This document shows, in pieces, positions 5,599-26,879 of a stretch of 64,000 nt of DNA. A model generated the notes under the pieces. The model searched no databases. It saw only the letters and a list, made by a program, of their open reading frames with translations, and had not been told where the DNA came from. The stretch's first letter is position 1; the number at the start of each line of letters is the position of its first letter. Origin of the DNA: Chelatococcus asaccharovorans (lineage in GTDB: Bacteria > Pseudomonadota > Alphaproteobacteria > Rhizobiales > Beijerinckiaceae); assembly GCF_003201475.1 (NCBI RefSeq), contig NZ_QJJK01000001.1, forward strand, positions 446,501-510,500, written 5' to 3'. The translations under genes and the position numbers were made by a program.

Positions 5599-6462
5599 TC
5601 ATTGCGACCGGGCATTCTGTCCGCCGGCGAGCTCGAGGATCTCGCTGGTGATCTCCTCCTGCCGCAGCCGGCGGGACTTTGCGGTGAGGTCGGCGAGCGT
5701 TCGCGTGACATTGCTCTTGGCGGTGACCATGGCCCGCAAGCGCGCCTCGTTTTCCGCCGCGAACGAGAGCGTGACCGCCTCGCACAGTTCCGCGAACACG
5801 TATTCTTCCGCAAGCCGCGCCAGGAGGACATCCGGCTGAAGCGTGATCAGAGATTGCGCGGCATGCCGCGCAGGCGGGAAGCGTGCGAAATCGAAGGGAA
5901 GAAGCACCGTCTCGCGGACGTCGACGCCCTGTGTGGAACCGGGGACGGCATGGACGACGGATATGCGCGACACGCCCTCCCGGTCGATCCGGCGATAGAG
6001 CTCCTCGACAATCTGGTTTGCCAGCGCGGTCGCTTGCCCGACATGGGCCATCATCGGCGCGGACCAGGCAACCGCCAGCCTGCGCGTTCCCGCCGCCATC
6101 AGCCCCCGGTCGCCGACAAGCAGCAACTGCACGGGCTCCGGCGCTGCCGCAACCAGTCTTTCGGCGGCATCGAGCACGCGCTCGTTGAAGAGGCCGGCGA
6201 ACCCCTGTTCGGCGCAGATCGCCACGACGGCATGGCGGCCAGCGGGCGATGGGCCGGGAGCGGCCTGCGCGCCCGCCGGCTGATAGGCGAGCGCCTGGCC
6301 GATCGCCGTGGCGATGGTGCGGGCATAGGACTGGACGCCCGCAAGCTGGCCGCGGGCCTCGCGCGAGTGCGCCGCCGCGATCCCCTGCATGGCGGCCACC
6401 ACTGCCGAGAGCTGGCGCACCGACTCGATGCGCACGGCGACGTCGCTCAGCCGTTCGCTCAT
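5599..6462 (-). CDS. atpG: N-ATPase subunit gamma
   Basis: 287 residues: the central rotor stalk of the F1 part. The N-terminal helix ([22 protein letters not shown]) and the C-terminal helix ([23 protein letters not shown]) are those that form the coiled-coil shaft; the Rossmann-like middle contains [14 protein letters not shown]. It is last in the operon and overlaps atpA by 4 bases (ATGA). Gamma is among the more divergent subunits of N-ATPases, so weak resemblance to housekeeping AtpG is expected. A longer antisense frame over the same bases is a shadow. Confidence 0.88.
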
Positions 6463-8000
6463 CCACCGCCCCCGCGCAAGTCGTCGACGAGTGTACGCAC
6501 CGCCGCCACGAGACGCTCCCGGCCTGCATCATCAAGGGCGCCGCTTCCGCCGAGCTCCTTCATCAGGTCCGGAACGACAGCATCGAGATGGCCCGGCAGA
6601 CGCCTGCGCAGCTCCGGCATGGTCTCGAGCGGCAGGTCGTCGAGAGCCCCAGTCGCCAACGCGGCAAGAAGCGCAATTTCATCCACCGGGCGCAGGGGCG
6701 TGAATCGCGGCTGGGACAGCAGCGCGCGGATGCGCTCGCCGCGCATCATCTGCGTTTTCACCCGCGTATCGGTAATGCCGCCGAAACGGGTGAACATCTC
6801 CAGTTCAAGGAATTGCGAGTAGTCGAGGCGAATGCGTCCGGACACCTGGCGCAGCGCCGGATGCTGGGCCTTGCCACCGACGCGGCTGACGCTGAGGCCG
6901 ACATCCACCGCCGGGCGGTGGTTGGCCGCGAAGAGCTGCGTGTTGAGCACGATCTGCCCGTCGGTGATGGAAATCAGGTTGGTCGGGATATAGGCGGCGA
7001 GATTGCCCGCATCGGTCTCGGCGATCGGCAGCGCCGTCAGCGAGCCGCCGCCAAGTTCCGCCGAGAGCTTGGCCGCTCGTTCGAGCAGGCGGGCATGCAG
7101 ATAGAAGATGTCGCCCGGATAGGCCTCCCGCCCCACCGGCTCGCGGGTCAGAAGCGCGAGCTCGCGATGGGTCGCCGCATGCTTGGTCAGGTCGTCGATG
7201 ACGATGAGCGCGTGCCGGCCGCGATCGCGGAAATACTCCGCCATCGTCATTCCGGCAAAGGGCGCGATCCACTGCAGCCCGGGCGCGGATGAGGCGGAGG
7301 CGACGACGAAGATGCATCGCTCCGGCGCGCCATGCGCGCGCACCGCCTCGATCACCCGCTCCACCGCCGTCGCGCGCTGGCCGACGGCAACGTAGACGCA
7401 GACGATGTCGGAATGCTTCTGGCTGATGATCGTGTCGAGCGCGACGGCCGTCTTGCCGGTCGCCCGGTCACCGATGATGAGCTCGCGTTGGCCGCGGCCG
7501 AGGGTGAAGAGGGCGTCCACCACCAGGAGGCCGGTATTCACCTGCTCCGCGACGAGATCGCGCTCGATGATCGCCGGCGCCGGCCGCTCCACCGGATGGA
7601 AGGCCTCCGCCACAACCGGCTTGCCGCCGTCGAGCGGCCGGCCGAGCGGGTCGACGACACGTCCGAGCAGGCCCGGCCCGACCGGGACCTCCAGGACCTT
7701 TCCCATGCGCTCGACCCGTGATCCGGCTTCGATCGTGCGTGCCTCATCCAGAATGACGGCGCTGATGGAATGGGCATCGAGCGTCAGGGCAAAGCCGATC
7801 TGCCCCCCCTCGAAGCGCAGCAGTTCGTTGAGCCGCGTCTCCGGCAGCCCCGAAAGTTCCGCGATGGCGTCGGCGATCCGCTCGACCCGCCCCAGCGACA
7901 TGGCTTCCGGGATCAGCTCCGTATGCGCCAGCCGCTCGCGGCTGCGTTCCAGCCACGCCTCGGCGAGACTGTTCTCGGTGGGGGCTGAACCGGCGGTCAT
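6459..8000 (-). CDS. atpA: N-ATPase subunit alpha
   Basis: 513 residues, the usual size of F1 alpha. The Walker A motif GDRATGKTA is at about 170-178, Walker B-like [13 protein letters not shown] near 260, and the alpha signature [17 protein letters not shown] near 360. It forms the F1 hexamer with beta and holds the non-catalytic nucleotides. Its start overlaps the atpF stop by 4 bases. The N-terminus is diverged from typical alpha, as expected for the N-ATPase branch. The operon is a second, non-housekeeping ATPase, so an ordinary atp operon should exist elsewhere in the genome. Confidence 0.93.
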
Positions 8001-8746
8001 GGGGACTGTCGCCCGTCTTGGGTCAGGGCCGCAGTGATCCGGTCGAGATCGGCCCGGAAACTGTTGCGCACGGCCGCGTGCGGCATGTCGATCTCCAGCC
8101 CGGCCACCAGCGCGGGATCAACGATCGGCGTAATCTCCACCGCCCGGCCGAGCGCCTGGGACAGCCGCTCGCGGCAGGCCAGCGCCTCGTCGGCGCTCAA
8201 GGCGCGGGGAACCTTGAGGCGGATGGGCGTGCCATTTGCGCCCATGCCCGCCCGTACCGATTCCGGCAAATCTGCCGCGCCCTTGGCCAGCCCCTCGACG
8301 AAGCCTGTCACGCGGGCCTCCTCCGGCAGCCGGGACAACAGCCTCGCGGCGATGTCGAGGGCGAGCCGGCTCGCCTCATCGGAGGTGGCGGCAGCGGCTT
8401 CCCGGCGTTCCCGCGCGATGTCCGCCGCGGCGGCCGCCCGCAGGCGATCGGCTTCCGCGCGCGCGGCCGCAAGGATGGTGCGCTTCTCGGCCTCGGCCTG
8501 CTCGGCCGCCGCCTTCATCGCCTCGCCGCGGGATTGCGCAAGGTCTGCTGCCTGCTTTTCAACGCCTTGCCGCTCGGCCTCGGCCGCGGCGCGTGCTGCC
8601 CGCGCGTCGTCGAGCAGCTTCGCGGCCGCAGCGCGCCGCTCCTCGATCATCGCCGCCACCGGCCGGAACAGGAACCGGCTCAGAATGAAGACGAGCACGA
8701 GGACGTTGATCGTCTGCAGCCCGAGAGTCCACCAGTCTATCCGCAT
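7997..8746 (-). CDS. atpF: N-ATPase subunit b with fused delta-like C-terminus
   Basis: 249 residues, longer than ordinary b (~160). One N-terminal membrane segment (about residues 8-28, [15 protein letters not shown]) is followed by a long Ala/Glu/Arg-rich coiled coil to about 130 (peripheral stalk). The C-terminal ~80 residues resemble the delta/OSCP end, with [15 protein letters not shown] and a final DLDRI helix. The operon lacks a separate atpH, so this protein probably joins stalk and F1-cap functions; that fits the known N-ATPase gene set. It lies 13 bases after atpE and overlaps atpA. Confidence 0.85.
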
Positions 8747-8759
8747 CGCCGCCCGATGC

Positions 8760-9008
8760 TCACTTGATGAACGGGTTGGCGAAGAGAACCAGAAGCGCGA
8801 TCACCAGGCAGTAGATGGCCATGGTCTCGATCATCGCGAGGCCCACAAAGAGGGTACGCGACAAGGTGCCCGCGGCCTCCGGCTGGCGCGCGATCGCGTC
8901 CATGGCCGCCGCCACCGCCCGCCCCTCGGCCAGCGCCGGCCCGATGGCGCCGAAAGAAACGGCAAGCGCTGCGGCGATGATGCTGACAGCTTGGATGGTA
9001 TCGTTCAT
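8760..9008 (-). CDS. atpE: N-ATPase subunit c (Na+-type rotor ring subunit)
   Basis: 82 residues, a two-helix hairpin with the polar loop RQPEA at 41-45. The ion-carrying carboxylate is Glu61 in helix 2 (AMIETMAIY), followed by Thr62 and by Tyr66 five positions on. In helix 1, Glu28 (ALAEGRA) sits where Ilyobacter tartaricus c has Gln32 (a constant offset of four residues aligns Glu65/Ser66/Tyr70 with Glu61/Thr62/Tyr66). This is the pattern reported for Na+-binding c subunits of N-ATPases. Na+ coupling is therefore predicted, not shown. The gene overlaps the atpB stop by 4 bases. Confidence 0.93.
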   Translation of the reverse strand: MNDTIQAVSIIAAALAVSFGAIGPALAEGRAVAAAMDAIARQPEAAGTLSRTLFVGLAMIETMAIYCLVIALLVLFANPFIK

Positions 9009-9706
9009 GGCGTGTCGTGCTCCTTTCCGGAAGCGTTCCGGGGCGGTCGGTTTTCGCCGATGGCCGCGCCGATGAAGACGCAGGCGAGAACAGCGAAGAT
9101 GTAGGCTTGCACGGCGCCCGTCAGCAGATCGAGCGCCATCAGCGGGATAGGCACCAGCAGGCCGGCCAGCGAGAGGATGATGCCGATGATGAAGACGCCG
9201 CTCATGATGTTGCCGAACAGGCGGACGATCAGCGAGAAGGTCCGGGTGATCTGCTCGACGAGATTGAGCGGGATCATGACCCAGCTCGGCTCCGCGAAGG
9301 TCTTGAGATAGCCGCCGAGCCCCTGCATCCGCACGCCGTAGACGATCGTCGCGCCGAGGACGATGAGGGCGAGCGCCGCGTCGGTTTCGAGGTGGGCCGT
9401 GGGAGGTTCGATGCCGGGCACGAGCGACGACCAGTTGGCGAGAAGGACATAGATCAGGATCGTGCCGATGAGGGCCCGGTAGGGCGCGGGATCCGCCTGC
9501 ATCGTATCGGCGATCTGGCCATCGATGGCACTCACGACGGCTTCGAGCGCCGCCTGGGCGCGCGAGGGCTGGAGCGACAGTCGCCGCGTCACGAGAAAGG
9601 CAAGCGCGGCAAGGCCGATCATGATCGCCCAGGTCACGAGAACCGGCTCCGTGATGGGCACGGGACCGATCTGGAAGACCGGCTCGAGGATCAGGGGTGA
9701 GGTCAC
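9005..9706 (-). CDS. atpB: N-ATPase subunit a
   Basis: 233 residues, a polytopic membrane protein. The essential Arg of the half-channels is Arg162 in SLIVRLFGNIMSG, matching the RLFGN signature around E. coli Arg210. NWSSLVPGIEPPTAHLETD near 91-109 is the other conserved family block. It forms the stator half of the ion path against the c ring. ATGA-type overlaps with atpR (upstream) and atpE (downstream) show tight translational coupling. Confidence 0.93.
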   Translation of the reverse strand: MTSPLILEPVFQIGPVPITEPVLVTWAIMIGLAALAFLVTRRLSLQPSRAQAALEAVVSAIDGQIADTMQADPAPYRALIGTILIYVLLANWSSLVPGIEPPTAHLETDAALALIVLGATIVYGVRMQGLGGYLKTFAEPSWVMIPLNLVEQITRTFSLIVRLFGNIMSGVFIIGIILSLAGLLVPIPLMALDLLTGAVQAYIFAVLACVFIGAAIGENRPPRNASGKEHDTP

Positions 9707-10011
9707 GGCAGGCCTCCGGCGCGGCCAAGGACCGCGCGGCGCATGATGAGGAGGCCGAGCGCGCCACTCAGCAGCGCGGCGGCACCGAGACGCGCAAGCC
9801 CGAAAAGGACCGCACCGAGCACCGCGAAGCGCAGGAGGTGGAGGCCGAGGCCCAGCGCGAGGTTCTTGCCGAGATAGAGCGCGGTGTTCGAGCGCAGGGT
9901 GGCGAAATGGGCAAGGCCCAGCAGCGCCCCCGCGCCGAGCCCGAGCGCGGTGTGGAGCGCCGTCTCGACGATCTCGTTGCTGAACAGTTCCATCATGGAC
10001 GATGCATCCAT
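9703..10011 (-). CDS. atpR: N-ATPase accessory membrane protein AtpR
   Basis: 102 residues with three hydrophobic segments (about 18-38, 55-78 and 78-92). It lies between atpQ and atpB, the place and size expected of AtpR, a protein found only in N-ATPase operons and thought to help assemble or stabilise the c ring, possibly through conserved Arg residues in its helices. The frame permits starts at MDASS or at MMELF (residues 6-7); the first overlaps atpQ by 19 bases, so a start one of the Met residues later is also possible. Confidence 0.85.
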   Translation of the reverse strand: MDASSMMELFSNEIVETALHTALGLGAGALLGLAHFATLRSNTALYLGKNLALGLGLHLLRFAVLGAVLFGLARLGAAALLSGALGLLIMRRAVLGRAGGLP

Positions 10012-10291
10012 TTCCAGGCGGACCAGAAGCCGATGCCGGCCCCGATCATGATGAGCAGCGCCGAGAAGAAGACGCCGCTGCTAAAAATCCTGTCAAGCCA
10101 CCGCCCCAGCAAGAGGGCAAGGAGCGTCGGCACGACGATGGTCCAGCCGAGAATGCCGATCTGGCCAAGACGGGCGCCGAGCGAAGGCTCGGGTGTCCTG
10201 GCACCGGTTTCGGCCCGTTCGGCGGCCTGCCGGGCAGCCGCCGTCATCGGGTCGTTCGGCGAGGGGGGCTCCTGGTCCGGTGGTGCGGCGC

Positions 10292-10295
<4 letters not shown>
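9993..10295 (-). CDS. atpQ: N-ATPase accessory protein AtpQ (AtpI-like)
   Basis: 100 residues. A soluble, proline- and acid-rich first half (to about 45) precedes two membrane segments (about 48-67 and 72-93: GILGWTIVVPTLLALLLGRW, then FFSALLIMIGAGIGFWSAW split by the turn). This is the AtpI/Q architecture; AtpI-type proteins assist c-ring assembly or Mg2+ handling. Its position between atpC and atpR matches the diagnostic N-ATPase order. It overlaps atpC by 4 bases. Confidence 0.87.
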
Positions 10296-12267
<1,972 letters not shown>

Positions 12268-12387: not shown

Positions 12388-13416
12388 TCACACGACAGAC
12401 CGTCGCTTCCGCCATTCCGAAGGTGTGATGCCGCTCCACCGCCTAAAGGCGCGGATGAAGGATCGCAGTTCGGCATAGCCCAGAATATCGGCGATCTGCG
12501 GCAGCTTTTGCGACGTCCTTTCGAGCAACTCGCAGGCAGCCTCGAAACGCGTCTTGTCCAACAGTTCCTGGTGGCTCACTCCATGCTCGGCCAGGCGCCG
12601 GTGAAATGTGCGGACGTGCATGTCGAAGAATTTCGCCAAACGGTCGGCCCTTGCGTGATCGAATGTCATGGCCGTTCTCATGACCGCTTGCACCTGGTCC
12701 GGGAAGGAACGCGCATGAACCCGCTCTTCCTCAGCAACCTTGTCGAGGATCAGACGGGTCAGGGCCGCTTCGGTCGGCGGCAGTGGTCGGGACAGCCAGG
12801 TGGCCGAAAACACAAGGCCGTAACTTTCAGCATCGAATTCGAGATGCACGCCCAAAATCTTCTTGTACGGCTCCAAGGCCTTGGGCCGGCCATGTGCAAA
12901 TCGAGCCTCTATCGCCTTGAAATCATTTCCGCAGAGGTCTCTCATAACGTTGAGGATCGCGGCCACCGCGCCATCGCCCGTTTGATCGACCCCGGGAATT
13001 CGCGGTTCGGTAATTCTGTAGGACAGGGTCGCTGCTCCCCCGTCAACATGGAGGTGCAAGGCGACCCCGTCAGCATGAAGGAAGAAGTGCCGGCAAAGAT
13101 TTCGAAGCGCGCTCCCGACATCTGGAGAGTGCTTTGCCAGGAGCCCCACAAGACCAAGTGATTCAAGTCGGCTCCGGCTGCCGACCAGAAGGCCGAAATA
13201 CGGACAGCCTGTAATCTTGGCGTATCGCTCGAGAAGTCGACCGCGTGCCGACAGCGAGATCCGATTATCCGGGCTGCCGAAGAGCGTCGAGTTAAACTCA
13301 GGCAGCAGAGCATTCTCCGAAGGCTCTGCCCGGAGCTCCCGCAGCACGTCGGGCACTCCAAGGGTGGCTCCGATCCTCAGGATCGCCTGATCACTTGTTT
13401 TCCGAACTGTTTGCAC
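12388..13416 (-). CDS. AraC-family regulator of the OruR/arabinose-binding-domain type
   Basis: 342 residues from GTG 13416, which has an AGAGG 6-7 bases upstream. The frame stays open to ATG 13692, but that start would overlap the divergent DszB-like gene and make a 434-residue protein, against the family norm of about 340. The N-terminal ~200 residues form the effector domain (SARGRLLERYAKITGCPYFGLLVG is the recognisable core); the C-terminal ~95 hold two HTH units, with MHVRTFHRRLAEHGVS and the IADILGYAELRSFIRAFRRWSG signature. It faces the DszB-like gene across ~190 bases and is its likely regulator. Confidence 0.85.
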   Translation of the reverse strand: MQTVRKTSDQAILRIGATLGVPDVLRELRAEPSENALLPEFNSTLFGSPDNRISLSARGRLLERYAKITGCPYFGLLVGSRSRLESLGLVGLLAKHSPDVGSALRNLCRHFFLHADGVALHLHVDGGAATLSYRITEPRIPGVDQTGDGAVAAILNVMRDLCGNDFKAIEARFAHGRPKALEPYKKILGVHLEFDAESYGLVFSATWLSRPLPPTEAALTRLILDKVAEEERVHARSFPDQVQAVMRTAMTFDHARADRLAKFFDMHVRTFHRRLAEHGVSHQELLDKTRFEAACELLERTSQKLPQIADILGYAELRSFIRAFRRWSGITPSEWRKRRSVV

Positions 13417-13606
13417 GGCCGCCTCTATATACTGTATTGTCCCAATCTGTCCACCTGGTGTCCAGATCGGACCTGTTCGGAAGGCTCTTGCCGGTCGAAG
13501 AATTCCCACACGACGGGCTTCGGGCGAAAACTGGCTGAGTTCAGGACGTGTTCCACGGTGAACAATGATGACCTTGGCGGTCGGCAGTCCATCTGGAGGA
13601 AAATCG

Positions 13607-14770
13607 ATGACCACCCAACGCGTTTCAACAACGGTTCCACTCGATTGGAAGCAGGTCTGGTTCACGAACTGCCCGATGGTGTCAGCCAACAATGTTGATC
13701 AGGAACTTGGCTGGTGTCGGGAGGAATATAAGAAAATCGGCGTCGAATACGCCTATTTCCGCCACGCACCGGAAAACAACTGGTACCCTCACTATATTCA
13801 CAATCTGGACAACCTGATCCGTTTTGGCGGGCTTTATCCGCCGATCCAAGTTAATGCAGACATCCGCCGGACCGTTCTGCTTGGAGCGACCTGGGTCTAT
13901 GAGGGCGGGGTGATGCAGGTTCGCGCCCGCGACAAGATCTTCCGCGTCCAGGATCTGAAAGGCAAAAAGATCGGGCTCACGAAGAGCCTGAACACGATCA
14001 AGAACGACTGGTGGCGAATTCAGGAGCACATGGGCATCCTGAACATATTGAAGCTGCACGACATGACTATCGACGACGTTGAGATCGTGGAGTTCCCCTA
14101 CGCAGACGACTGGTACGACAAGCCCGAGATGCTCGTGCCACCGATGAACAACCCGTCCGAACTCTGGATGCGGCGCGACCACAAGCGCGACTATGCCTTC
14201 CGGCCATTGGAGAAGGCCCTGCTCGCGGGGACCGTCGACGCCATCTACAACCAGATGGGCCAGCTGGGGCAGCTCTCGGAGGCGACGGGCGAAATCAAGT
14301 CGATCTTCGACCTGTCGAGGCTGCCCGACTGGACCATTCAGGTCGCCAACACGCCTGCCGTGATCACCTGCACGGACGTGATGGCCAAGGAGCATCCCGA
14401 ACTGGTCGTCGCGTATATGAAGGCCATGATCAAAGTCGGCCGCTGGGCCAACAGAAACAAGGCGGCCGCAGCCGAGATCCTCAACCGGCAGACCTTCTAC
14501 CTGGATGCCGAGCATACCTATGAAGGGATCAAGCACGTCGACATGGTGCCGAGCCTGAGCGCACAGAACCTTGAATGCATCCGCATCGGCAAGGACTTCA
14601 TGTTCGAGCATGGCTACATCAAGAATGATTTCGACGTCGCCGAATGGGCCGCGCCCGAGTTCCTCGAGAAGGCTGCAATCGAAGTTCTCGAGGAGGAGTG
14701 GGAGCGGCGGAGCTGGAGCAAGCTGCCCGCTGGCGGCGGTCTCGACGTGGAGGGAACGCGCCTCGGCTAG
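13607..14770 (+). CDS. DszB-like protein (sulfinate desulfinase / NMT1-type solute-binding fold)
   Basis: 387 residues from ATG 13607 (GGAGGA 6 bases upstream). The fold is that of periplasmic-binding-protein-like NMT1/SsuA proteins, but there is no signal peptide. Against recalled DszB (2-(2-hydroxyphenyl)benzenesulfinate desulfinase, ~365 residues, Cys27/His60/Arg70), the following are kept: FTNCP with Cys22, His62 ten residues before Arg72, the RFGG motif after it, an ENNWYPHYIHNL loop, and a C-terminal WAAPEFLEKA block matching DszB's WAAPEFL. The whole triad is therefore present in the right spacing. It may cleave a C-SO2- bond, releasing sulfite; the substrate is unknown. A cytosolic binding protein such as a riboflavin- or pyrimidine-biosynthesis relative is the alternative. 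The SulP and rhodanese genes downstream favour sulfur chemistry. Confidence 0.65.
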   Translation: MTTQRVSTTVPLDWKQVWFTNCPMVSANNVDQELGWCREEYKKIGVEYAYFRHAPENNWYPHYIHNLDNLIRFGGLYPPIQVNADIRRTVLLGATWVYEGGVMQVRARDKIFRVQDLKGKKIGLTKSLNTIKNDWWRIQEHMGILNILKLHDMTIDDVEIVEFPYADDWYDKPEMLVPPMNNPSELWMRRDHKRDYAFRPLEKALLAGTVDAIYNQMGQLGQLSEATGEIKSIFDLSRLPDWTIQVANTPAVITCTDVMAKEHPELVVAYMKAMIKVGRWANRNKAAAAEILNRQTFYLDAEHTYEGIKHVDMVPSLSAQNLECIRIGKDFMFEHGYIKNDFDVAEWAAPEFLEKAAIEVLEEEWERRSWSKLPAGGGLDVEGTRLG

Positions 14771-14881
14771 CTCCATCAAACCGGGGGCGCCATCAGCCTG
14801 GTTCATGCTGATTGGCGTCGTCCGGCCGTGGCACCATGGGGATGGGAAAGCTCGCGGGATCAGACCCCGAGGGGGATACGC

Positions 14882-16648
14882 ATGCGCCGCACTGAACCTG
14901 GCCGCTGGCCGGTGCCGTTCTCCGGATTGCGAAGCGCGACCCTGAGTGGCGCTCCCCGCGAGATAGCCGCGGGAATTACGCTCGCAGCGCTGATCATTCC
15001 GCTTAATATCGGCTATGCGCAGGTCGCAGGCCTGCCACCGACCGCGGGGCTCTATGCCGCGATCATTCCGCTCGTTGTCTTCGCCCTGCTCACCTCGTCG
15101 CGCCACCTCATCACCAGTCCCGACGCGTCGCTTACCGCTTTGGCATCGGCGGCGCTTATAGGATTGCAGCTGCCCGATAGCACGGTTCGCTACGACTACA
15201 TGCTTGCAATGGCACTGGTCGCAGGCGGATTGTTTTTCATGTTCTGGGCGTTCCGCCTCGCGTTCCTCGCCAACTTTCTATCCCGCCCGGTGATGGCCGG
15301 ATTCGTCTCGGGCTTGGGACTGGAAGTCTTTGTGAGCCAGGTCTTCAAGATCCTTGGAGCGCCACACATCGACATGACGGGCACGGCAGCCGCGACCGCA
15401 CGCGACGCGCTGTCCTTGCCGTTCGAGACGACGGGGTTCTTTCTGGAGCTGGCCACCCTGGCGCGTACTATCCCACATGCGAACCTCTGGTCGGTCGTCG
15501 TCGGGCTCGCCGCCTTCTTCATGGTCCGGCTGCTCAAGCGCTTCGCGCCGGCCGTGCCCGGCTCTCTCGTCGTGCTGGCGATCCTGACGGTTCTCGTGGG
15601 TGCGTTCGGGCTCGACCAGAAGGGGGTCAGCGTCCTCGGCGCCATTCCCTCAGGCCTGCCCCAGCTGACATTTCCGCGCGTGCCCCTTTCTGCCTTCTTC
15701 GACGTCCTGCCCGCGGCACTCGCGGTCGTCGCGATCACGCTGTGTGAAGGGCTTCTCCTGTCGCGCCGCTACAGCCGCAAATATGGATATAAGGCTGACG
15801 GCAACCAGGTCCTCTTCGCCTTCGGGGCGGCCAATGTTTCTGCTGCACTTTCGGGCGCCTTCCTGACCGCCGCAAGTCCATCTCGCACGGCGGCCATGGA
15901 CACTGCGGGCCAGCAGAGCCAGTTACCCTCCCTGGTGGCGGCCGTGACGATCACAATCGTGATGCTGTTCTTCACCGACGTACTCGCCTATCTGCCGAAT
16001 GCAGCATTGGCGGGGATCGTGGCAAATGCCGTCATCGGCCTCGTGTCCGTTTCAGAATTCCGAGACCTCTGGCGGATGCGCAAGACGGAGTTCTGGATCG
16101 CCGCGGTCTGCTTCCTGAGCGTGCTGGTTCTGGGCCCCATGCAGGCGGTCCTCATCGCTGTTCTGATGTCGATCATCGACGTCGTCGGTCGTGCATCGCG
16201 GCCGGAAAGCTGGCTTTTGGCCGCGGTCTCCGATGGCAGCCATTTCGAACCCGTTCCACCGGGTGAGGAAGATACCGCTGCCCCGCTTCTGGTTTATCGC
16301 TTCGGCACTGCGCTCTACTTTGCCAACGCGAACACCTTCCTCGAGGATGTCGAGGCCATCCTCGAATCCCGGACGGCGCCGCTCGTCTGGTTCGTGCTCG
16401 ATGCCGAGGCGATCTCCGAACTTGACACGACCGGAGCAGAGACCCTGCACCAGGTGGCGAAAATGCTCGACAGCAAAGGTGTCACCCTGATCATCACGCG
16501 GGCGAGCCCCGCCCTGGTGGCGCAGTTCGGCCAGCTCGGTCTGCATGAACTGGTCGCCGAGGCCCCGATGTTTCCAACCAATCGACAGGCGATGGACGCT
16601 TTCCGCAACGCGAAGACGTCCCGTCATGGACGAGGAGAACCCGCATGA
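14882..16648 (+). CDS. SulP-family anion transporter with STAS domain
   Basis: 588 residues from ATG 14882 (GAGGGGG upstream; an earlier in-frame ATG at 14828 lacks a good site). About 10-12 membrane segments run from residue 25 to 420, opening with the SulP signature region PLNIGYAQVAGLPPTAGLYA. A cytoplasmic STAS domain occupies about 445-570 (LLVYRFGTALYFANANTF, then the LDAEAISELDTTG loop typical of anti-sigma-antagonist folds). SulP proteins carry sulfate, bicarbonate or organic anions. It starts 111 bases after the DszB-like gene and overlaps the next gene by 4 bases. Sulfate or sulfite movement is suggested by context; bicarbonate cannot be excluded. Confidence 0.88.
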   Translation: MRRTEPGRWPVPFSGLRSATLSGAPREIAAGITLAALIIPLNIGYAQVAGLPPTAGLYAAIIPLVVFALLTSSRHLITSPDASLTALASAALIGLQLPDSTVRYDYMLAMALVAGGLFFMFWAFRLAFLANFLSRPVMAGFVSGLGLEVFVSQVFKILGAPHIDMTGTAAATARDALSLPFETTGFFLELATLARTIPHANLWSVVVGLAAFFMVRLLKRFAPAVPGSLVVLAILTVLVGAFGLDQKGVSVLGAIPSGLPQLTFPRVPLSAFFDVLPAALAVVAITLCEGLLLSRRYSRKYGYKADGNQVLFAFGAANVSAALSGAFLTAASPSRTAAMDTAGQQSQLPSLVAAVTITIVMLFFTDVLAYLPNAALAGIVANAVIGLVSVSEFRDLWRMRKTEFWIAAVCFLSVLVLGPMQAVLIAVLMSIIDVVGRASRPESWLLAAVSDGSHFEPVPPGEEDTAAPLLVYRFGTALYFANANTFLEDVEAILESRTAPLVWFVLDAEAISELDTTGAETLHQVAKMLDSKGVTLIITRASPALVAQFGQLGLHELVAEAPMFPTNRQAMDAFRNAKTSRHGRGEPA

Positions 16649-18339
16649 AAGTCATGATCATTGGCGGTGTCGCCGGTGGCGCATCCTGCGCCGCCCGCCT
16701 TCGCCGGCTGGACGAGACGGCCGAAATTCTTCTCGTGGAACGGGGCCCGTTCGTCTCCTTCGCCAATTGCGGCCTTCCTTATCACACCAGCGGCATCATC
16801 GCGCGGGAGCAGGATCTGCTCGTCGCGAACGAAGCATATTTCAAGGCCAACCTGAATATCGACGCCCGGACGAGATGCGAGGCAATCGCGATCGACAGGA
16901 AGGCCAAAACCGTCGATCTGCGACACCTCGAGACGGGGGAAGTGACGACGGAGAGCTACGACAAGCTCGTCCTTTCGCCCGGCGCTCCATCGGTGGCGCC
17001 GCCCATCCCGGGCATCGACCTGCCTGGCATCTTCCAAATGCGCACCGTGCCCGACGCTCGCGCCGTGCGGGAATGGATCGAGAAGGGCTCCTTGTTCCTC
17101 ACAGGGATGAGCAAATATTCAGGCTTCCAGACGGCCCGTCCGAAGACGCGTGCCGTGGTGGTTGGAGGCGGGTTTATCGGGTTGGAGATGGCCGAGAATC
17201 TGGTCCATCGCGGATTTGACGTGACGGTGATCGAGCTGCGGGACCAGGTTCTCGCCCCGATGGACCGCGAGATGGCGGAGATCGTTGAGCGCCATCTCAA
17301 CCATCACGGTGTCAGCGTCGTGCTCGGTGATGCCGTAACGGCGTTTACCCCAAGGGAGGACGGTGCCATCGAGGTGGCGACCCGTTCTGGGACCGAGTTC
17401 CCGGCCGATATCGTGATCCTTGCGCTCGGTGTGCGCCCGGATACCGCGCTGGCCCGGTCGGCGGGTCTCGAAATCGGAAAGCTTGGCGGCATTCGCGTCA
17501 ATGACCACATGCAGACCAGCGACCCGGAGATTTTCGCCGTCGGCGATGCAATTGAGGTGCGCGATACGGTCACGGGGGCGTGGAGTCTCGTCGCTCTGGC
17601 CGGACCGGCCAACCGGCAGGGCCGGATCGCGGCAGACGTGATTGCTGGACGCGACAGCCGCTACAGGGGAACGCAGGGAACCTCGATCATCGGTCTCTTC
17701 GACGGGGCGGCAGCCTGGACGGGCGCGAGCGAAAAGGCGCTGCAGAATGCCGGCCGGCAGGACTACGAGAAGGTCTACCTCTATCCCAACTCGAATGCCG
17801 GCTATTATCCCGGCGCCAAGCCCATCGCCATGAAAGTCCTGTTCTCCAGGACGGATGGACGCCTTCTCGGTGCGCAGGCGGTCGGCATGAAAGGAGTCGA
17901 CAAGCGCATCAGCACCCTTGCAATGGCCATCCAGATGGGCGCAACGGTGTATGACCTTGAGGAGGCCGAATTGTGCTACGCGCCGCAGTTCGGAAGCGCC
18001 AAGGATGCAGTGAATTTCGCGGGCATGGTTGCTGCGGACGTGCTCCGGGGCGATATGCCCATCTCGCACTGGGGCGACCCTTCGGAGGCAATCCTGCTCG
18101 ACGTGCGGGAACCGGCCGAGTTGCGCGTGGAAAGCGTGGCCGGGGCGGTCAACATTCCGCTTCGCCAGCTCCGCGAACGGATCACCGAACTGCCGCGGGA
18201 TCGCGACATCCATGTGATCTGCAGGTCGGGCCAGCGCGCCTATTATGCGACGCGCATCCTGCTGCAGAACGGCTACCGGGCACACACGATGTCCGGGGGC
18301 ATGCTCGCCCGTTACCATCGCGGCGTGCTCGACAGCTGA
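16645..18339 (+). CDS. CoA-disulfide reductase/rhodanese fusion (CoADR-Rhd, Npsr-like)
   Basis: 564 residues. An N-terminal FAD/NAD(P) disulfide-reductase module (GGVAGGASCAARLRRLD) carries the single redox Cys42 in FANCGLPY, the CoADR/Nox signature. A second nucleotide motif VVVGGGFIGLEMAE lies near 168-181, and FAVGDAIE near 300. The last ~100 residues are a rhodanese domain (ILLDVREPAEL) with catalytic Cys526 in VICRSGQRA. Such fusions reduce CoA-persulfides, polysulfide or sulfur using NAD(P)H, and thus handle zero-valent sulfur. Translation is coupled to sulP (ATGA overlap), which strongly ties transporter and reductase. Confidence 0.88.
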   Translation: MKVMIIGGVAGGASCAARLRRLDETAEILLVERGPFVSFANCGLPYHTSGIIAREQDLLVANEAYFKANLNIDARTRCEAIAIDRKAKTVDLRHLETGEVTTESYDKLVLSPGAPSVAPPIPGIDLPGIFQMRTVPDARAVREWIEKGSLFLTGMSKYSGFQTARPKTRAVVVGGGFIGLEMAENLVHRGFDVTVIELRDQVLAPMDREMAEIVERHLNHHGVSVVLGDAVTAFTPREDGAIEVATRSGTEFPADIVILALGVRPDTALARSAGLEIGKLGGIRVNDHMQTSDPEIFAVGDAIEVRDTVTGAWSLVALAGPANRQGRIAADVIAGRDSRYRGTQGTSIIGLFDGAAAWTGASEKALQNAGRQDYEKVYLYPNSNAGYYPGAKPIAMKVLFSRTDGRLLGAQAVGMKGVDKRISTLAMAIQMGATVYDLEEAELCYAPQFGSAKDAVNFAGMVAADVLRGDMPISHWGDPSEAILLDVREPAELRVESVAGAVNIPLRQLRERITELPRDRDIHVICRSGQRAYYATRILLQNGYRAHTMSGGMLARYHRGVLDS

Positions 18340-18362
18340 GACCGCCGATATCCTGGTGGCCC

Positions 18363-18416
18363 GATCCCGACATCTGCGTCCCCTTGGTCGAGGGCGATCG
18401 CGCAAATGTCGGAATC
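18363..18416. terminator. Imperfect inverted repeat after the sulP/CoADR genes
   Basis: GATCCCGACATCTGCG (18363-18378) and CGCAAATGTCGGAATC (18401-18416) pair at 14 of 16 positions around a 22-base loop. It begins 24 bases after the CoADR-Rhd stop and could end or attenuate transcription before the small membrane-protein gene. No T run follows, so a protein-binding or RNA-stability role is equally possible. Confidence 0.35.
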
Positions 18417-18455
18417 GAAGGGCCACTCGTCAATTATTGATTCGAGGTTCACCCC

Positions 18456-18863
18456 ATGGCATCGCTCGAGGAAGCTGCGACCCGGTTCCTCGCCCACATT
18501 CTGGAACGGCCTGACGGACCCATGGCGTTTCGCCTCATCCTGCAGCCGATCATGGCTGCCATTCTGGCGATCCGCGATGGCATTCGCGACGGCAAGACCG
18601 GTGCGCCACCCTATCTTCTTGCCATCTTTGGTGCCGCCGACCAACGGCGGGAAGCCTTAAGGAACGGATGGCGCTCGACGTCGAGGATCGTAATTCTCGC
18701 GGCGGTGCTCGATATAATCTATCAGGCCATCGTGTATCGGGCCGTCTACCCCGGTGAAGTCATGGTCATCGCCATTCTGCTCGCCATCGTTCCGTATATG
18801 ATCATACGCGGCCCGGTAGCGCGGATCGTCAGGCGGGCGCGGGCACCGGCGGAGAAGCTCTGA
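18456..18863 (+). CDS. Small conserved membrane protein, function unknown
   Basis: 135 residues from ATG 18456, 116 bases after the CoADR-Rhd gene. Predicted topology: an amphipathic start (EEAATRFLAHILERP), a hydrophobic stretch near 25-42 (LILQPIMAAILAIRDG), then two clear membrane segments at about 76-95 and 100-118. The tail is basic (RGPVARIVRRARAP). I do not recognise a named family, although proteins of this kind accompany SulP and sulfur genes in other Rhizobiales by my recollection. It may be the last gene of the sulfur module, with the inverted repeat before it attenuating expression. Confidence 0.65.
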   Translation: MASLEEAATRFLAHILERPDGPMAFRLILQPIMAAILAIRDGIRDGKTGAPPYLLAIFGAADQRREALRNGWRSTSRIVILAAVLDIIYQAIVYRAVYPGEVMVIAILLAIVPYMIIRGPVARIVRRARAPAEKL

Positions 18864-18874
18864 CAGCGGCCGCT

Positions 18875-18980
18875 AGAGCAAGTCCGTCTTTTGCGGACTT
18901 GGCATCGCTCAGAAACTAACGAGCAAATTCATCGACCTAGATGGCATCAGATGCTTCCATCTAAGCCGGATTTGCTCGAG
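18875..18980 (+). repeat. Interspersed double-hairpin repeat, copy 1
   Basis: About 106 bases holding two palindromes: GCAAGTCCG-tcttt-TGCGGACTTG at the left, and a longer imperfect one pairing ATCGACCTAGATGG with CCATCTAAGCCGGAT at the right. It is the reverse complement of the copy at 34109-34214 with few differences. It lies between a plus-strand gene end (18863) and a minus-strand gene end (19034). Confidence 0.85.
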
Positions 18981-19033
18981 CAGTCATCAGCCGGTTGCTC
19001 CATCGCCCGGTATCGGACAACGGGTGTTCGTGA

Positions 19034-19723
19034 TCAATCGGTCCCCTCCCCCTCGGCGAAGCGGCGAAGGGCGCCCGGGTCGGTGATGGTGATGGAACGG
19101 TAAGTGTTACTCAGCCATCCGGCCTCGGCGAAGCGCCTGATGGCGGCGTTGACCTGCTTGCGCGAAGCATTGGCCATGACACCGAGCTCGCTCTGGGTGA
19201 GCGGGATCGGTGCCTGTCCGATCCAGGTCGTGCGCTGAAGCACCGAGGCGATCCGCCGGTCCGCCTGGGGCTTTTGTAGATCGTGGATCACCCGGAACAG
19301 GAACTCGACAGTCATCATCAGCATGAGCGCGACATGGTTCACCACCGCCGGATCGCGCGCCGCCATCTGGTCCATCGCATCGAGAGGAAGGTGCAGCATT
19401 GTCGTTTCGACGACGGCCCTGAGTTCGGCTTTTCGTGGCGTCCGCGTAAGAAAGCAGCCTTCTCCGGTCCAGTGCCCTGGGACCCCCAGAAGGATCAGGC
19501 GCGGCGTCGCATCGGCCGGAGCGAGGCTGACGCTGACGGTGCCCGCCACGAGCCCGTAAACCCCGCCCGGCGGATCACCGAGATGGAACACCGGCTCGCC
19601 TGGAGCGAGGTGCAGCACCATCGCGCGCCGCAGCACCTCGGTCCGGAACGCCTCCGGCACCAGTGGCAGCCAGCCGCGTTCGCTCATGACCTCATCTGCG
19701 TAAGCCTTGCTGACGCGCTCCAT
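19034..19723 (-). CDS. Crp/Fnr-family transcriptional regulator
   Basis: 229 residues from ATG 19723 (GAGG upstream); the frame is open further but runs into the divergent gene. An N-terminal cyclic-nucleotide-like beta-roll (residues about 25-130, GEPVFHLGDPPGGVYGLVAG) is followed by the dimer helix and a winged HTH (LTQSELGVMANASRKQVNAAIRRF, broken by the turn). Cysteines for an Fe-S cluster are absent from the N-terminus, so it is not FNR-like in oxygen sensing. A perfect palindrome, TTGTCCG-N4-CGGACAA, 18 bases upstream of its start, is the probable site for autoregulation and for control of the divergent DUF1254 genes. Confidence 0.88.
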   Translation of the reverse strand: MERVSKAYADEVMSERGWLPLVPEAFRTEVLRRAMVLHLAPGEPVFHLGDPPGGVYGLVAGTVSVSLAPADATPRLILLGVPGHWTGEGCFLTRTPRKAELRAVVETTMLHLPLDAMDQMAARDPAVVNHVALMLMMTVEFLFRVIHDLQKPQADRRIASVLQRTTWIGQAPIPLTQSELGVMANASRKQVNAAIRRFAEAGWLSNTYRSITITDPGALRRFAEGEGTD

Positions 19724-19740
19724 GAAAAAAAACCTCGGCT

Positions 19741-19758
19741 TTGTCCGATTCCGGACAA
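19741..19758. promoter_or_regulatory. Perfect 18-base palindrome TTGTCCG-ATTC-CGGACAA, likely Crp-family operator
   Basis: Two 7-base half-sites exactly inverted around four bases, the same layout as Crp/Fnr-family boxes but with different half-site bases. It sits between the divergent Crp-family gene (start 19723) and the first DUF1254 gene (start 19821). A similar half-site, TATCGGACAACG, occurs near 19013-19024 just beyond the end of the regulator gene. Confidence 0.65.
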
Positions 19759-19820
19759 ATATACTTTTCCAAGCGCTTAAACTAGCGGTTGCGGCGCGAC
19801 CTAGCCGGGAGACCATCGTC

Positions 19821-21257
19821 ATGACAAGCGCCTCCTCCATGAACAGACGCGCCCTCCTCGCATCGCTGGCGAGCATTGGTGCGGGAACGTCCCTGAGCCT
19901 GAGCGCGAGCCCTTCGGCCGCCCGGGCAACCGAAGCCGATACGCTGCGCGCGATCGCCAAGGAGGCGACGATCTGGGGCTTCCCGCTCGTCGACAATTAC
20001 CGCATCCAGTATTCCTATTTTGCGGATCGTGGCGGGCCCGAATTCAAGGCGCCCTGGAACGTGATCGCCAACACGGCGCGCGTCTACACGCCCGAAGACA
20101 AGGCCATCCAGACGCCGAACTCGGACACGCCCTATTCCTATATCGGCGCCGACCTGCGGACCGAGCCCCTGGTGATCACGGTCCCCGCCGTGGAGGCGGG
20201 GCGTTACTACTCGCTGCAATTCATCGATCAGTACACCTTCAACTTCGCCTATGTCGGCAGCCGCGCCACGGGCAACGGGGCCGGAAGCTTCCTGCTCGCT
20301 GGCCCACGCTGGAAGGGTCGCACGCCACCGGGCGTGAAGGGCGTGATCCGTTGCGAAACCGATTTCGCCTTCGTGCTCTACCGGACCCAGCTCTTCGCGC
20401 CGAGCGATATCGAGAAGGTCAAGGCGATCCAGGCGGGTTACGCGGTGCAGCCGCTCTCGCAGTTTCTCGGCAAGCCGGCACCGGCGGCCGCGCCCGCCAT
20501 CGACTTTCCGCGGCCGCTCTCGCCGGAGCAGCAGCGCAGCTCGGCCGAATTCTTCCCGATCCTGAACTTCGTCCTGCAATTCTGCCCGACACATGCTTCC
20601 GAGCGGGATTTGCGTCGGCGCTTCGCCCGCATCGGCGTCGGACCGGGCAAGGCCATGGATATCGCCAATCTTGAGCCCGAACGGCGCAAGGCGCTCGAGG
20701 ACGGGATGGCCGATGCCTGGAAGGCCTTCGCCGCCTTCAAGGCGGGCGAGCTCGACACCGGCAAGCGCACGGCAGCAGAGGGCTTCGGAACGCGGAGCTT
20801 CCTGAAGAACGACTACATGATCCGCATGGCCTCGGCCGCGCTCGGAATCTATGGCAATTCAAAGGAGGAGGCCCTCTACCCCTTCTATTACTCCGATTCC
20901 GCCGGCCAGCCGCTGAACGGCCAGGACGGGCGCTATACGCTGCGGTTCGATCCGAAGAATTCGTTCCCCGTCAACGCCTTCTGGTCGCTCACCGTCTACG
21001 CGCTGCCGCAGAGCCTGCTCTCCGCGAACGCGATCAATCGCTACCTCATCAACTCGCCGATGCTGCCGGCGCTGAAGCGCGATCCGGATGGGCTGGTGAC
21101 GCTCCATCTTCAGCACGAATCCCCGGGACCGGACCGTGAAGCGAACTGGCTGCCCGTCCCCGCCGGACCGTTCTGGACAACGCTGCGGCTCTACTGGCCC
21201 AAGCCCGAGGCGCTGGATCCCCGGTGGAAGCAGCCGCCGCTTGTTCGCGCCGCCTGA
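19821..21257 (+). CDS. Exported DUF1254/DUF1214 protein with Tat-like signal
   Basis: 478 residues from ATG 19821. The first ~45 residues look like a Tat/Sec export signal (MNRRALLASLASIGAGTSLS, ending near an ARATE cleavage site). The DUF1254 part (about 60-190) includes IWGFPLVDNYR and IQTPNSDTPYS; the DUF1214 part forms the C-terminus (GRYTLRFDPKNSFPVNAFWSLT). These proteins are widespread in soil and aquatic bacteria; a role in processing small molecules in the periplasm has been suggested but no reaction is established. It stands directly before a second DUF1254-type gene (16 bases apart) and downstream of the operator palindrome. Confidence 0.85.
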   Translation: MTSASSMNRRALLASLASIGAGTSLSLSASPSAARATEADTLRAIAKEATIWGFPLVDNYRIQYSYFADRGGPEFKAPWNVIANTARVYTPEDKAIQTPNSDTPYSYIGADLRTEPLVITVPAVEAGRYYSLQFIDQYTFNFAYVGSRATGNGAGSFLLAGPRWKGRTPPGVKGVIRCETDFAFVLYRTQLFAPSDIEKVKAIQAGYAVQPLSQFLGKPAPAAAPAIDFPRPLSPEQQRSSAEFFPILNFVLQFCPTHASERDLRRRFARIGVGPGKAMDIANLEPERRKALEDGMADAWKAFAAFKAGELDTGKRTAAEGFGTRSFLKNDYMIRMASAALGIYGNSKEEALYPFYYSDSAGQPLNGQDGRYTLRFDPKNSFPVNAFWSLTVYALPQSLLSANAINRYLINSPMLPALKRDPDGLVTLHLQHESPGPDREANWLPVPAGPFWTTLRLYWPKPEALDPRWKQPPLVRAA

Positions 21258-24992: not shown

Positions 24993-26690
24993 TCACTTGG
25001 CGCGCGACCAGTTTGCCACGTCCCACAGCTCGCTGTCCCACGGGTTCATCGACACCGCGCTGAGCGACTTGGCCGCGCCCGAGATATTGCCGCGATGCAC
25101 CAGCGGGATGACGGTGTAGGACTGCACCAGCCTGTCGTTCATCTTGCGCGCGAGGTCGGCGCGCGCCGGGATCCCGTCGGTCTTGCGCAGGGTCTGCGAC
25201 AAGGCCTCGTAATCCTGCGCGCAGTAGCGCGGCATGTTGCTGCCTTGCCATTGCGTGGCCGGCGACGGGATCGCCGCACAGGTCCACTTGTTCAGGTAGG
25301 ATTCCTGGTCGAGGCCCTTCGAGTTGTCGGTGTACATCTCGATATCGGCGTAGAATTTCTGCCGCGTGTCGGGGTTGCCGGCATCGCCGCCGAAGAAGAC
25401 CGAGCCGCTGACATTACGAAGATCGACGCTGACGCCAAGCGCCTTCCAGTATTCCTTCAGCATGGCCTGGGTATCCTGCCGAACCCCGCTGGTCGAGGTG
25501 AGGAAGGACAGTTTCAGCTTCTGCCCGTCCTTTTCGCGGATACCGTCGGCGCCGGGCTTCCATCCGGCCTCGTCCAGCAAAGCCTTGGCCGCCGCGACAT
25601 CAGGCTTCAGGCAGCCGTCATTGGCCGTCGAGACGTATTGCGCCGGTGCCGGCACGACATTGCAGGTCGGCTTGCCCTGATCGCCGTAGAGAGCCTCCGC
25701 GATCTCGGCGCGATCGATGGCAAGGGACAGCGCCTTGCGCACGCGGATGTCGCTCAGGATCTTGTTCGGGCCGCCTGCCACGGTCGAGCGCTTGTCGCCC
25801 AGCTCAGATCCCGGATCGGTCAGGTTCAGGAACAAGTATTCGACCATCGAGCCGAAGGCCGTCACGGGCCGGGCCTTGCCCGACGAAGCGAGCTTCGCCA
25901 TGACATCGGGCGCGAGCTGCAGGTTCCACGCGTAATCCGTCTCGCCCGTCTCGAAGACAGCCCGCGCGGCGGACATCGCATCGCCGCCGCCCTTGATCGT
26001 GACGCCTGAGAAATGCGGCTTGCCGGCTTCGCGGTAGAGCGGATTCATCGCATAGACGACGACGTCGTTCGGCTTGAAATCCTTGACCGTGTAGGGGCCG
26101 GTCCCGATCGGCGCGAAATTCTGCGCGGTGCAGGAGGCGATCTTGGCGCCCATGCACGCCTTGAACTGCGCTTCCTGCAGGATGGGCGTGGTCGAGCTGA
26201 CGAAGGGCACATAGGGATAGGGCGTCGGCTGCGCAAACTTTATCTCGACCGTCAGGTCGTCCTTGGCCACGATATCCTTGATGCCGTCGAAGGCATTCGA
26301 CGCCGCGCAGCCCGCGCCCGGGGCCGTGCAGTAGGTCCAGGTGAAGACCACGTCCTTCGCGGTGAAGGCGCCGCCATCCGACCATTTGACGCCGGGCCGC
26401 AGCTTCCAGGTGATCATCGTCGTGTCGGCCGAGATGCCGCCGTTCTCCTTCGTCGGAATCTCGGCCGCCAGCAGCGGCACCAGCTTGCCCTCAGGATCGA
26501 ACCGGGCCAGGGGCTCGACCACCAGTGCCGCCGCATCGACCTCCTTGCCGATCCCCGACAGATAAGGGTTCAGCGTCGAAGCGGCCTGCCAGTACAGGAT
26601 TTTCAGATCTCCATCCGAACCGCGCTCGGCATGCGCAGCAAAAGGCAGCAGCGCAAGCGCGGCCGCGGTCAGGAACTTGGCCATGCTCAT
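24993..26690 (-). CDS. Peptide/nickel-type ABC transporter substrate-binding protein
   Basis: 565 residues from ATG 26690 with AGGAGA about 7 bases upstream; longer open frames here are not supported. A Sec signal peptide (MSMAKFLTAAALALLPFAAHA) is followed by the SBP family 5 fold, with WKLRPGVKWSDGGAFTAKDV (broken at the turn) near 95-115 and KALSLAIDRAEI near 330. It binds oligopeptides or similar ligands in the periplasm for the permeases at 29957-31865 and the ATPase at 32174. It is divergent from the rpiR-type gene, and AT-rich motifs lie between them. Confidence 0.9.
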   Translation of the reverse strand: MSMAKFLTAAALALLPFAAHAERGSDGDLKILYWQAASTLNPYLSGIGKEVDAAALVVEPLARFDPEGKLVPLLAAEIPTKENGGISADTTMITWKLRPGVKWSDGGAFTAKDVVFTWTYCTAPGAGCAASNAFDGIKDIVAKDDLTVEIKFAQPTPYPYVPFVSSTTPILQEAQFKACMGAKIASCTAQNFAPIGTGPYTVKDFKPNDVVVYAMNPLYREAGKPHFSGVTIKGGGDAMSAARAVFETGETDYAWNLQLAPDVMAKLASSGKARPVTAFGSMVEYLFLNLTDPGSELGDKRSTVAGGPNKILSDIRVRKALSLAIDRAEIAEALYGDQGKPTCNVVPAPAQYVSTANDGCLKPDVAAAKALLDEAGWKPGADGIREKDGQKLKLSFLTSTSGVRQDTQAMLKEYWKALGVSVDLRNVSGSVFFGGDAGNPDTRQKFYADIEMYTDNSKGLDQESYLNKWTCAAIPSPATQWQGSNMPRYCAQDYEALSQTLRKTDGIPARADLARKMNDRLVQSYTVIPLVHRGNISGAAKSLSAVSMNPWDSELWDVANWSRAK

Positions 26691-26816
26691 TCCATCTTCT
26701 CCTGTGGCTGGCCCCGGATCTCTGACCTGGGCTGACGGGCTGATTAAAGTTGTGGGCGGGTGACAGCGAATGACACTTGTGGGCGGGGGACAGCCGCTGC
26801 CACCTGGACGCGCATT

Positions 26817-26875
26817 GATTATTGTAACATACTGTGCAAAATGCCCGAACTGAGTCAATATGTAATAAAGAATAC
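26817..26875. promoter_or_regulatory. Candidate RpiR-type operator pair at the first divergent promoter
   Basis: TATGTAATAAAGAATAC (within 26859-26875) and, inverted, GTATGTTACAATAAT (the complement of 26818-26832) share a TATGTWAYAA core. They lie just before the rpiR-type gene and about 130-185 bases upstream of the binding-protein gene. Almost the same sequence, GTCAATATGTAACAAATAAT, recurs at 32006-32025 before the permease and ATPase genes. Confidence 0.5.
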
Positions 26876-26879
26876 AGGA

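Follow-up and report, generated by a model that had tools for sequence, protein, structure and literature searches.

The closest described relative of the enzyme considered here is DszB, the 2′-hydroxybiphenyl-2-sulfinate desulfinase (PDB IDs: 2de2 and 2de3). According to published calculations, Cys27 of DszB is the proton donor, and the His60–Ser25 dyad takes up charge and stabilises the transition state (PMC6100217; PMC12168087). The first article describes Phe61, Trp155 and Phe203 as hydrophobic contacts (PMC6100217), and the second names slow turnover and product inhibition of DszB as limits to biodesulfurization (PMC12168087). Here, we analysed a DszB-like gene and its neighbours in a 64,000-nt stretch of the Chelatococcus asaccharovorans genome (contig NZ_QJJK01000001.1, positions 446,501 to 510,500; hereafter the window). 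An earlier note, made from the sequence of the window alone, had proposed a sulfur module of five genes, namely a DszB-like desulfinase, a SulP transporter, a CoA-disulfide/CoA-persulfide reductase fused to a rhodanese domain (CoADR-rhodanese), a small membrane protein and an AraC regulator, and all five genes were present. We favour, with modest confidence, the reading that this is a regulated, mobile sulfur module in which a DszB-type desulfinase located in the cytoplasm acts on a polar sulfinate and works together with rhodanese and CoA-persulfide chemistry. No description of a DszB-like/rhodanese module was found among the listed titles or abstract openings of the literature searched, a coverage that leaves out most subscription journals.

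The DszB-like gene (13607–14770, plus strand, 387 aa) starts at an ATG preceded by ggagg. When 177,635 distinct PDB sequences were searched with phmmer, DszB was the only protein retrieved at E ≤ 1 (2de2, E = 7.2e-9; 2de3, E = 1.7e-8), and a profile built from 30 members of the clade to which the window protein belongs retrieved DszB at E = 6.4e-13. The phmmer alignment paired Cys22, His62 and Arg72 with Cys27, His60 and Arg70 of DszB, with a gap of ten between the histidine and the arginine in both proteins, and contained the shared RFGG and WAAPEFL blocks, just as the earlier note had described them; Gly75 and Thr20 correspond to Gly73 and Ser25 of DszB. An AlphaFold model was obtained with a pLDDT of 82.7 and a pTM of 0.84, and it was weaker in blocks 51–70 and 161–200 (pLDDT 67–72; 71–72 for 51–70), where pocket residues are likely to lie. 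A Foldseek search with this model gave DszB chains of 2de3 and 2de2 as the top three matches (E = 3.3e-18 to 3.3e-17, TMq 0.62–0.67, rmsd 4.9–6.0), followed by SsuA, Thi5 and TauA, and a total of 264 matches at E ≤ 0.001 showed that the fold is a common one. At the level of sequence and predicted structure, these comparisons confirmed that 13607–14770 encodes a relative of DszB in which the catalytic residues are kept.

Cys22, His62, Arg72 and Gly75, as well as the Thr20 position, were conserved in all 39 covering clade rows, which reach from Alphaproteobacteria to Chloroflexi, cyanobacteria and metagenome-assembled genomes (MAGs) of methanogens. These counts leave aside locus L037, which lacks coverage of the N-terminus, and loci L038–L040, which are fragments or a broken copy and stand in no alignment; alignment A2 additionally omits L004, L010, L015, L036, L037, L041 and L042. 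Loss of the cysteine in close homologues had been put forward as a finding that would speak against a desulfinase, and Cys22 was kept in the homologues aligned. Among 13 other rows of the family, DszB included, the cysteine, arginine and glycine were present in 13 and the histidine in 12, and none of three annotated ABC binding proteins kept any of the cysteine, histidine or arginine. The clade shares the signature [ST]xCP...H...RxGG with DszB. In addition, all covering clade rows have W59, W135, D168, K193 and D195, at columns where DszB shows a different residue or a gap. Two loci with unusual copies were also seen: of the three DszB-like copies in Tateyamaria pelophila (L023), two or more carry an N-terminal extension and two are without the proline after Cys22, and in Synechococcus WH 5701 (L039, 7977–10381) the copy is in three pieces with a 327-aa open reading frame (ORF) between them, while intact copies exist elsewhere.

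In a tree of 39 rows, 26 clade rows formed one branch with a support of 100/100 at the end of a long stem. Other parts of the tree held DszB and the relatives linked to monooxygenases, and the row nearest to the clade was a single 42% relative (L060 of genome G867). The deep joins are unsure because long branches meet there and five rows have an unusual composition. One genome scan gave 37 distinct loci with proteins 61–98% identical to the DszB-like protein of the window, and their carriers are named as Alphaproteobacteria, Deltaproteobacteria, Chloroflexota, Synechococcus, Actinobacteria, Verrucomicrobiota, two methanogen MAGs and others, with the proviso that short MAG contigs among them may be misbinned. 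The gene is rare. It was found in 1 of 385 genomes of the window's own class, in 6 of 396 genomes of the class of G388 (G388 and G389, which were known beforehand, included) and in 2 of 240 genomes of the phylum of G394, these two being G394 itself and the 42% relative. Among viral contigs there were three pattern matches, none of which encodes a relative.

The neighbourhood of the clade was compared in 40 loci, namely the window, L005–L042 and L055, with hidden Markov models that were built here from families found in these same loci. L004 and L043 were left out as near copies of the window and of L042, respectively, and the remaining loci up to L060 as distant relatives or copies of counted loci; L016/L040 and L029/L037 represent two MAGs but were counted separately. 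A rhodanese, alone or within CoADR, lay within 5 kb of the DszB-like gene in 33 of the 40 loci, and in 17 of the 18 loci whose flanks measure 2.5 kb or more on each side, which makes it the most constant partner of the clade. CoADR-rhodanese was found in 11, SulP in 10, SBF-family genes in 9 and a related AraC gene in 8 of the 40. Pfam confirmed the rhodanese assignment for one scanned member each of families F3 and F10 and for the neighbour in L035. Most of the SulP proteins found were only about 30% identical to that of the window, so the transporter looks interchangeable, and for the same reasons SulP was rejected as a defining partner. The idea that the gene set forms a module held in that the set recurs and moves together, but its most constant member is the rhodanese and not, as had been supposed, SulP or the CoADR fusion.

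The linkage was also seen against a genomic background. In nine genomes (our own and eight picked from the 37 loci, not at random and after some neighbourhoods had been seen), PF00581 detected 108 rhodanese domains in about 41.8 Mb, and in all nine one of these lay within 3.4 kb of a DszB-like gene, compared with about 0.02 per genome that we estimate by chance. The same nine genomes contained 38 SulP matches. Five of the nine carried CoADR-rhodanese, with six close copies in total, and five of the six were within 2.5 kb of a DszB-like gene. On plasmids, the four records with a 60–80% match to the DszB-like protein were the same four that had a 60–80% match to CoADR, all of them from Rhizobium; in one of them, NZ_CP030763.1, the two genes are about 14 kb apart.

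DszB-type enzymes would be expected beside monooxygenases, and the earlier note had pointed out that no dszA or dszC was present. This was borne out on a wider scale, as seven DszA/DszC-type query proteins gave no match (E ≤ 1e-8) in 44 clade loci, a set that includes mutual copies, and the only matches of that query set there were the DszB-like genes themselves. A dibenzothiophene cluster was accordingly rejected. Two paralogues with 28–29% identity are encoded elsewhere in the same genome (G000:C7), in a monooxygenase cluster (G000:C7:238000-254000, L066) with homologues of Sinorhizobium meliloti LLM, acyl-CoA-dehydrogenase-like and FAD monooxygenases (75–85% identity). The family is therefore represented in this genome by two branches, one linked to oxygenases and the other to rhodanese.

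The module forms a cassette (12388–18876) that, as read from the sequence, was horizontally transferred as a unit. In Kaistia dalseonensis, locus L004 encodes a DszB-like protein that is 98% identical to that of the window, and a blastn comparison with this 17-kb locus aligned 12398–18354 at 95.1% and 18440–18876 at 92.9%. The rest of L004 showed no further similarity to the window at E ≤ 1e-5, so both ends are bounded. The surroundings differ: in L004 the cassette adjoins a phage integrase and an HTH_21 protein that we read as an IS3-type transposase, and in the window it lies between an ATP synthase-type operon (5599–12231) and a Crp-type regulator (19034–19996). Among four genomes of the same genus that were searched, the DszB-like and CoADR genes occurred in the same one and the other three were without both; K. 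dalseonensis, outside this set, also carries the two genes. The beta subunit of the flanking ATP synthase-type operon scored 612.8 bits with the atpD model, over its cutoff, and 611.3 bits with the alternate F1F0 type, under its cutoff. Directly past the cassette, at 18862–18997, there is a dispersed repeat of about 110 bp, on which 44 of the 46 own-genome matches of a 13-kb query fell (40 of 331 candidates were scored, and a few matches are pieces of one copy). The repeat folds as a long hairpin (18866–18990, z = -3.58), and weaker copies were seen in other genomes of the genus.

The remaining genes of the cassette are arranged around the DszB-like gene as follows. Upstream and on the minus strand, an AraC/QhpR-like regulator (12388–13416) matched Pfam Arabinose_bd (E = 2.8e-38) and HTH_18 (E = 1.7e-18) as well as NCBIfam QhpR (E = 6.6e-63, 212.5 bits, under the 250-bit cutoff). 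It had first been listed as a 434-aa ORF from TTG 13692, which runs into the DszB-like gene. The regulator assignment was upheld but this extent was dropped, because of the overlap and because the K. dalseonensis copy begins at the position of GTG 13416 and other family members are similar in length; the protein is thus probably 342 aa, with its gene divergent from the DszB-like gene and the two starts about 190 bp apart. Downstream and on the plus strand, the SulP-family anion transporter (14828–16648; the start may instead be ATG 14882) contains Sulfate_transp (E = 9.7e-77) and STAS (E = 3.3e-14) domains. Its gene overlaps that of CoADR-rhodanese (16645–18339, plus strand) by the four bases 16645–16648 that had already been noted. 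CoADR-rhodanese matched TIGR03385 and has the order Pyr_redox, dimerisation domain and C-terminal rhodanese (Pfam Rhodanese, E = 3.4e-11), with the cysteines of NCGLPY and CRSGQR both present. The small hydrophobic protein (18456–18863, plus strand, 135 aa) has hydrophobic segments at about residues 75–125 and no Pfam match at E ≤ 0.01. Its family (F15) was found only in the window and in L004 among the loci compared. A scan for promoters and terminators gave 3 promoter-like sites (1.4 expected) and 6 terminator-like sites (5.3 expected), no tRNA was found in the window, and a search for repeats within the module gave nothing interpretable.

On the reading that we favour, Arg72 and Gly75 would clamp the sulfinate (R-SO2-), by homology to DszB, and Cys22, aided by His62 and Thr20, would give the proton that replaces SO2, yielding R-H and sulfite with neither oxygen nor a cofactor. 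The enzyme would be cytoplasmic, as no signal peptide was visible by hydropathy. A rhodanese, alone or fused to CoADR, would remove the sulfane sulfur of a thiosulfonate and leave the sulfinate or, alternatively, join sulfite to a persulfide so that thiosulfate is formed. Rhodaneses are able to convert thiosulfonates to sulfinates and to trap sulfite as thiosulfate. The pairing with a desulfinase would be simplest if the substrate were a thiosulfonate or if the sulfite were trapped as thiosulfate. CoADR would then reduce CoA-persulfide with NADH to sulfide, SulP (or SBF-family proteins in other loci) may move the anionic substrate or product, and the AraC regulator would switch the gene set on. 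More tentatively, and as rather less than probable, we propose that the clade represents a system for C–S cleavage without DszA/DszC-type monooxygenases, possibly independent of oxygen, in which the sulfinate is formed by the rhodanese from a thiosulfonate (polar or cationic) or a thione-derived compound, the desulfinase frees sulfite, and both sulfurs are recovered, and that this system is spread over bacteria and archaea. Ergothioneine sulfinate, a heteroaromatic sulfinate, would fit the conserved residues rich in Trp, Tyr and Asp, but this is only a guess.

Several observations weigh against a desulfinase of a polar sulfinate coupled to rhodanese chemistry. We infer a polar substrate because the hydrophobic contacts of DszB align with Tyr63 (Phe61), Lys193 (Phe203) and a gap beside Gln139 (Trp155), but the alignment is weak in this region, and Lys193 pairs with Phe203 in the phmmer alignment and with a leucine of DszB in the clade alignment. 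The hypotaurine-like or aryl sulfinates suggested earlier were guesses, and the same alignment speaks against a hydrophobic pocket of the DszB kind. DszB chemistry itself suits aryl or vinyl sulfinates. The stem of the clade is long (1.46 + 1.33 changes per column), so the function may have shifted. The CoADR of the window (422.6 bits with TIGR03385, cutoff 578.8) and its SulP (311 bits with TIGR00815, cutoff 380, with both domains present) fall under their NCBIfam cutoffs, and neither was found near most copies. Seven of the 40 loci had no rhodanese within 5 kb: the sequence downstream is no longer than 259 bp in L017, L027, L038 and L040 and measures 740 bp in L024, but no rhodanese match was found in L023 (10.4 kb, with its three copies) or around the truncated or frame-shifted copy in L036, which has more than 7 kb on both sides. 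Nor is the partner exclusive to the clade, as the dsz-like relatives in L045 and L065 have a rhodanese-like gene close by, on the opposite strand. Furthermore, no sulfinate-making enzyme is constant in the module. Genes of the oxygenase type do occur in places: L027 and L017 have a gene of an ABM-domain family upstream, and a BoxA-annotated gene is found beside CoADR in a Rhizobium cluster. Finally, the redox enzymes of L033, L041 and L009/L010/L023 were weighed as possible pointers to the substrate and rejected, since they differ by locus and reveal no common pathway.

These redox neighbours are as follows. In L033 (155–4810), from a Verrucomicrobiota MAG, genes for a glycyl radical enzyme, a phosphofructokinase-family protein and an activase start a run on the same strand as CoADR, DszB-like, rhodanese, SBF and SulP genes. 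The glycyl radical enzyme scored best with the model of trans-4-hydroxyproline dehydratase and the activase with that of HpsH, both under the cutoffs, and among the listed matches the former reached no NCBIfam cutoff. The DszB-like gene of L041, a plasmid locus of Rhizobium leguminosarum, has genes for two 2-hydroxyacyl-CoA dehydratase-family subunits and two activases around it (6457–11885), and in L009, L010 and L023 the neighbours include a ferredoxin-nitroreductase and an enoyl-CoA hydratase.

Other explanations were weighed against the same evidence. The enzyme could transfer sulfur rather than remove a sulfinate, with Cys22 loaded by the rhodanese or taking sulfane sulfur from a thiosulfonate or polysulfide, so that a C–S or S–S bond is made or broken through a persulfide intermediate and the fold and anion clamp are reused. 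In favour of this account are a sulfurtransferase and not a DszA/DszC-type oxygenase as the most constant neighbour, the long stem branch and the residues W135, D168, K193 and D195 that are invariant in the clade and not found in DszB at those columns. However, the clade also conserves Thr20, His62 and Gly75, residues with a role in the DszB reaction, and the rhodaneses could equally deal with sulfite from desulfination; we regard sulfur transfer as somewhat unlikely. Alternatively, the module might serve in stress or repair, the enzyme clearing a sulfur metabolite that has been over-oxidised, namely a sulfinate derived from a small thiol or thione, while the rhodanese and the CoA-persulfide reductase restrain reactive sulfur. 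The DUF202, DUF2254, MarC, DUF1269 or GH63-type genes in several loci, the two-component or MalT-type regulators and the Npsr-type reductases are consistent with such a role, but a gene this rare is more in keeping with a niche nutrient or compound than with a damage product that arises universally, and we consider it rather improbable.

Least probable, and in our view very improbable, is a non-catalytic cytoplasmic protein for binding or sensing, derived from an ABC-type binding protein whose transporter was lost. The annotation of the four close plasmid relatives is ABC transporter substrate-binding protein, weak matches to SsuA_fam and NMT1 were obtained, and the fold is common among binding proteins, as the Foldseek matches show. 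On the other hand, the catalytic residues stand in every covering row of the clade and are missing from the three annotated binding proteins. A signal peptide and an ABC permease partner had both been named as signs of a binding protein. By hydropathy, a crude test, the N-terminus of the DszB-like protein scored 0.24, compared with 2.72, 1.96 and 0.51 for the three annotated binding proteins, and no signal peptide was visible. None of 19 window proteins scanned was an ABC permease or a cognate ATPase; one of them (24993–27497) is an SBP_bac_5 protein that lies 6 kb beyond the module. Among the annotated loci, ABC genes adjoin only in the near-identical Rhizobium loci L042 and L043, where the transporter lies upstream and has its own binding protein. 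A solute-binding protein was thus rejected, and the plasmid annotations suggest that an enzyme of the desulfinase family has been filed as a transporter part.

The neighbourhood of the clade suggests that carbon–sulfur compounds are broken or handled here in a manner not yet described. If sulfinates are cleaved, the breakdown of organosulfur compounds would be tied to persulfide metabolism with no need for the usual oxygenases, in aerobes as well as in MAGs of groups known as anaerobes, and it would involve a desulfinase with a pocket unlike that of DszB. The frequent pairing with a rhodanese makes the question of the substrate testable with two purified proteins.

When compared with known systems, the clade shares only a general fold with the SsuA, TauA and Thi5 (NMT1) binding proteins, from which it differs by its catalytic residues and the lack of a visible signal peptide; Thi5 is itself a different, suicidal enzyme. 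The CoADR of the cassette resembles the NADH-dependent CoA-persulfide reductases (PDB IDs: 3nta, 3icr and 8a56), with 3nta, of the Npsr type, as its best PDB match (E = 1.6e-155 over residues 2–556, including the NCGLPY cysteine). We know of no linkage of Npsr-type CoA-persulfide reductases to a DszB-like enzyme, and the ten genera of the plasmid records with DszB-like genes include none of the enterobacteria that dominate the group with 47–48% CoADR matches. The dsz-like operons of rhizobia, Sphingobium and our own genome (L044, L045, L064, L065 and the L002/L003 genes of L066) belong to the same superfamily and have the catalytic residues, except that one of three copies in L044 is without the histidine. 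They differ in their identity of about 26–29%, in their separate branch and in their LLM, acyl-CoA-dehydrogenase-like or other monooxygenase partners. DszB itself has the same fold, signature and RFGG and WAAPEFL blocks, but its identity to the DszB-like protein is 20–22% in the Foldseek alignments and its hydrophobic pocket residues are apparently not kept. The annotated relative in L061 lies between an LLM oxidoreductase and dszC, whereas the enzyme of the window is found with rhodanese and CoADR instead.

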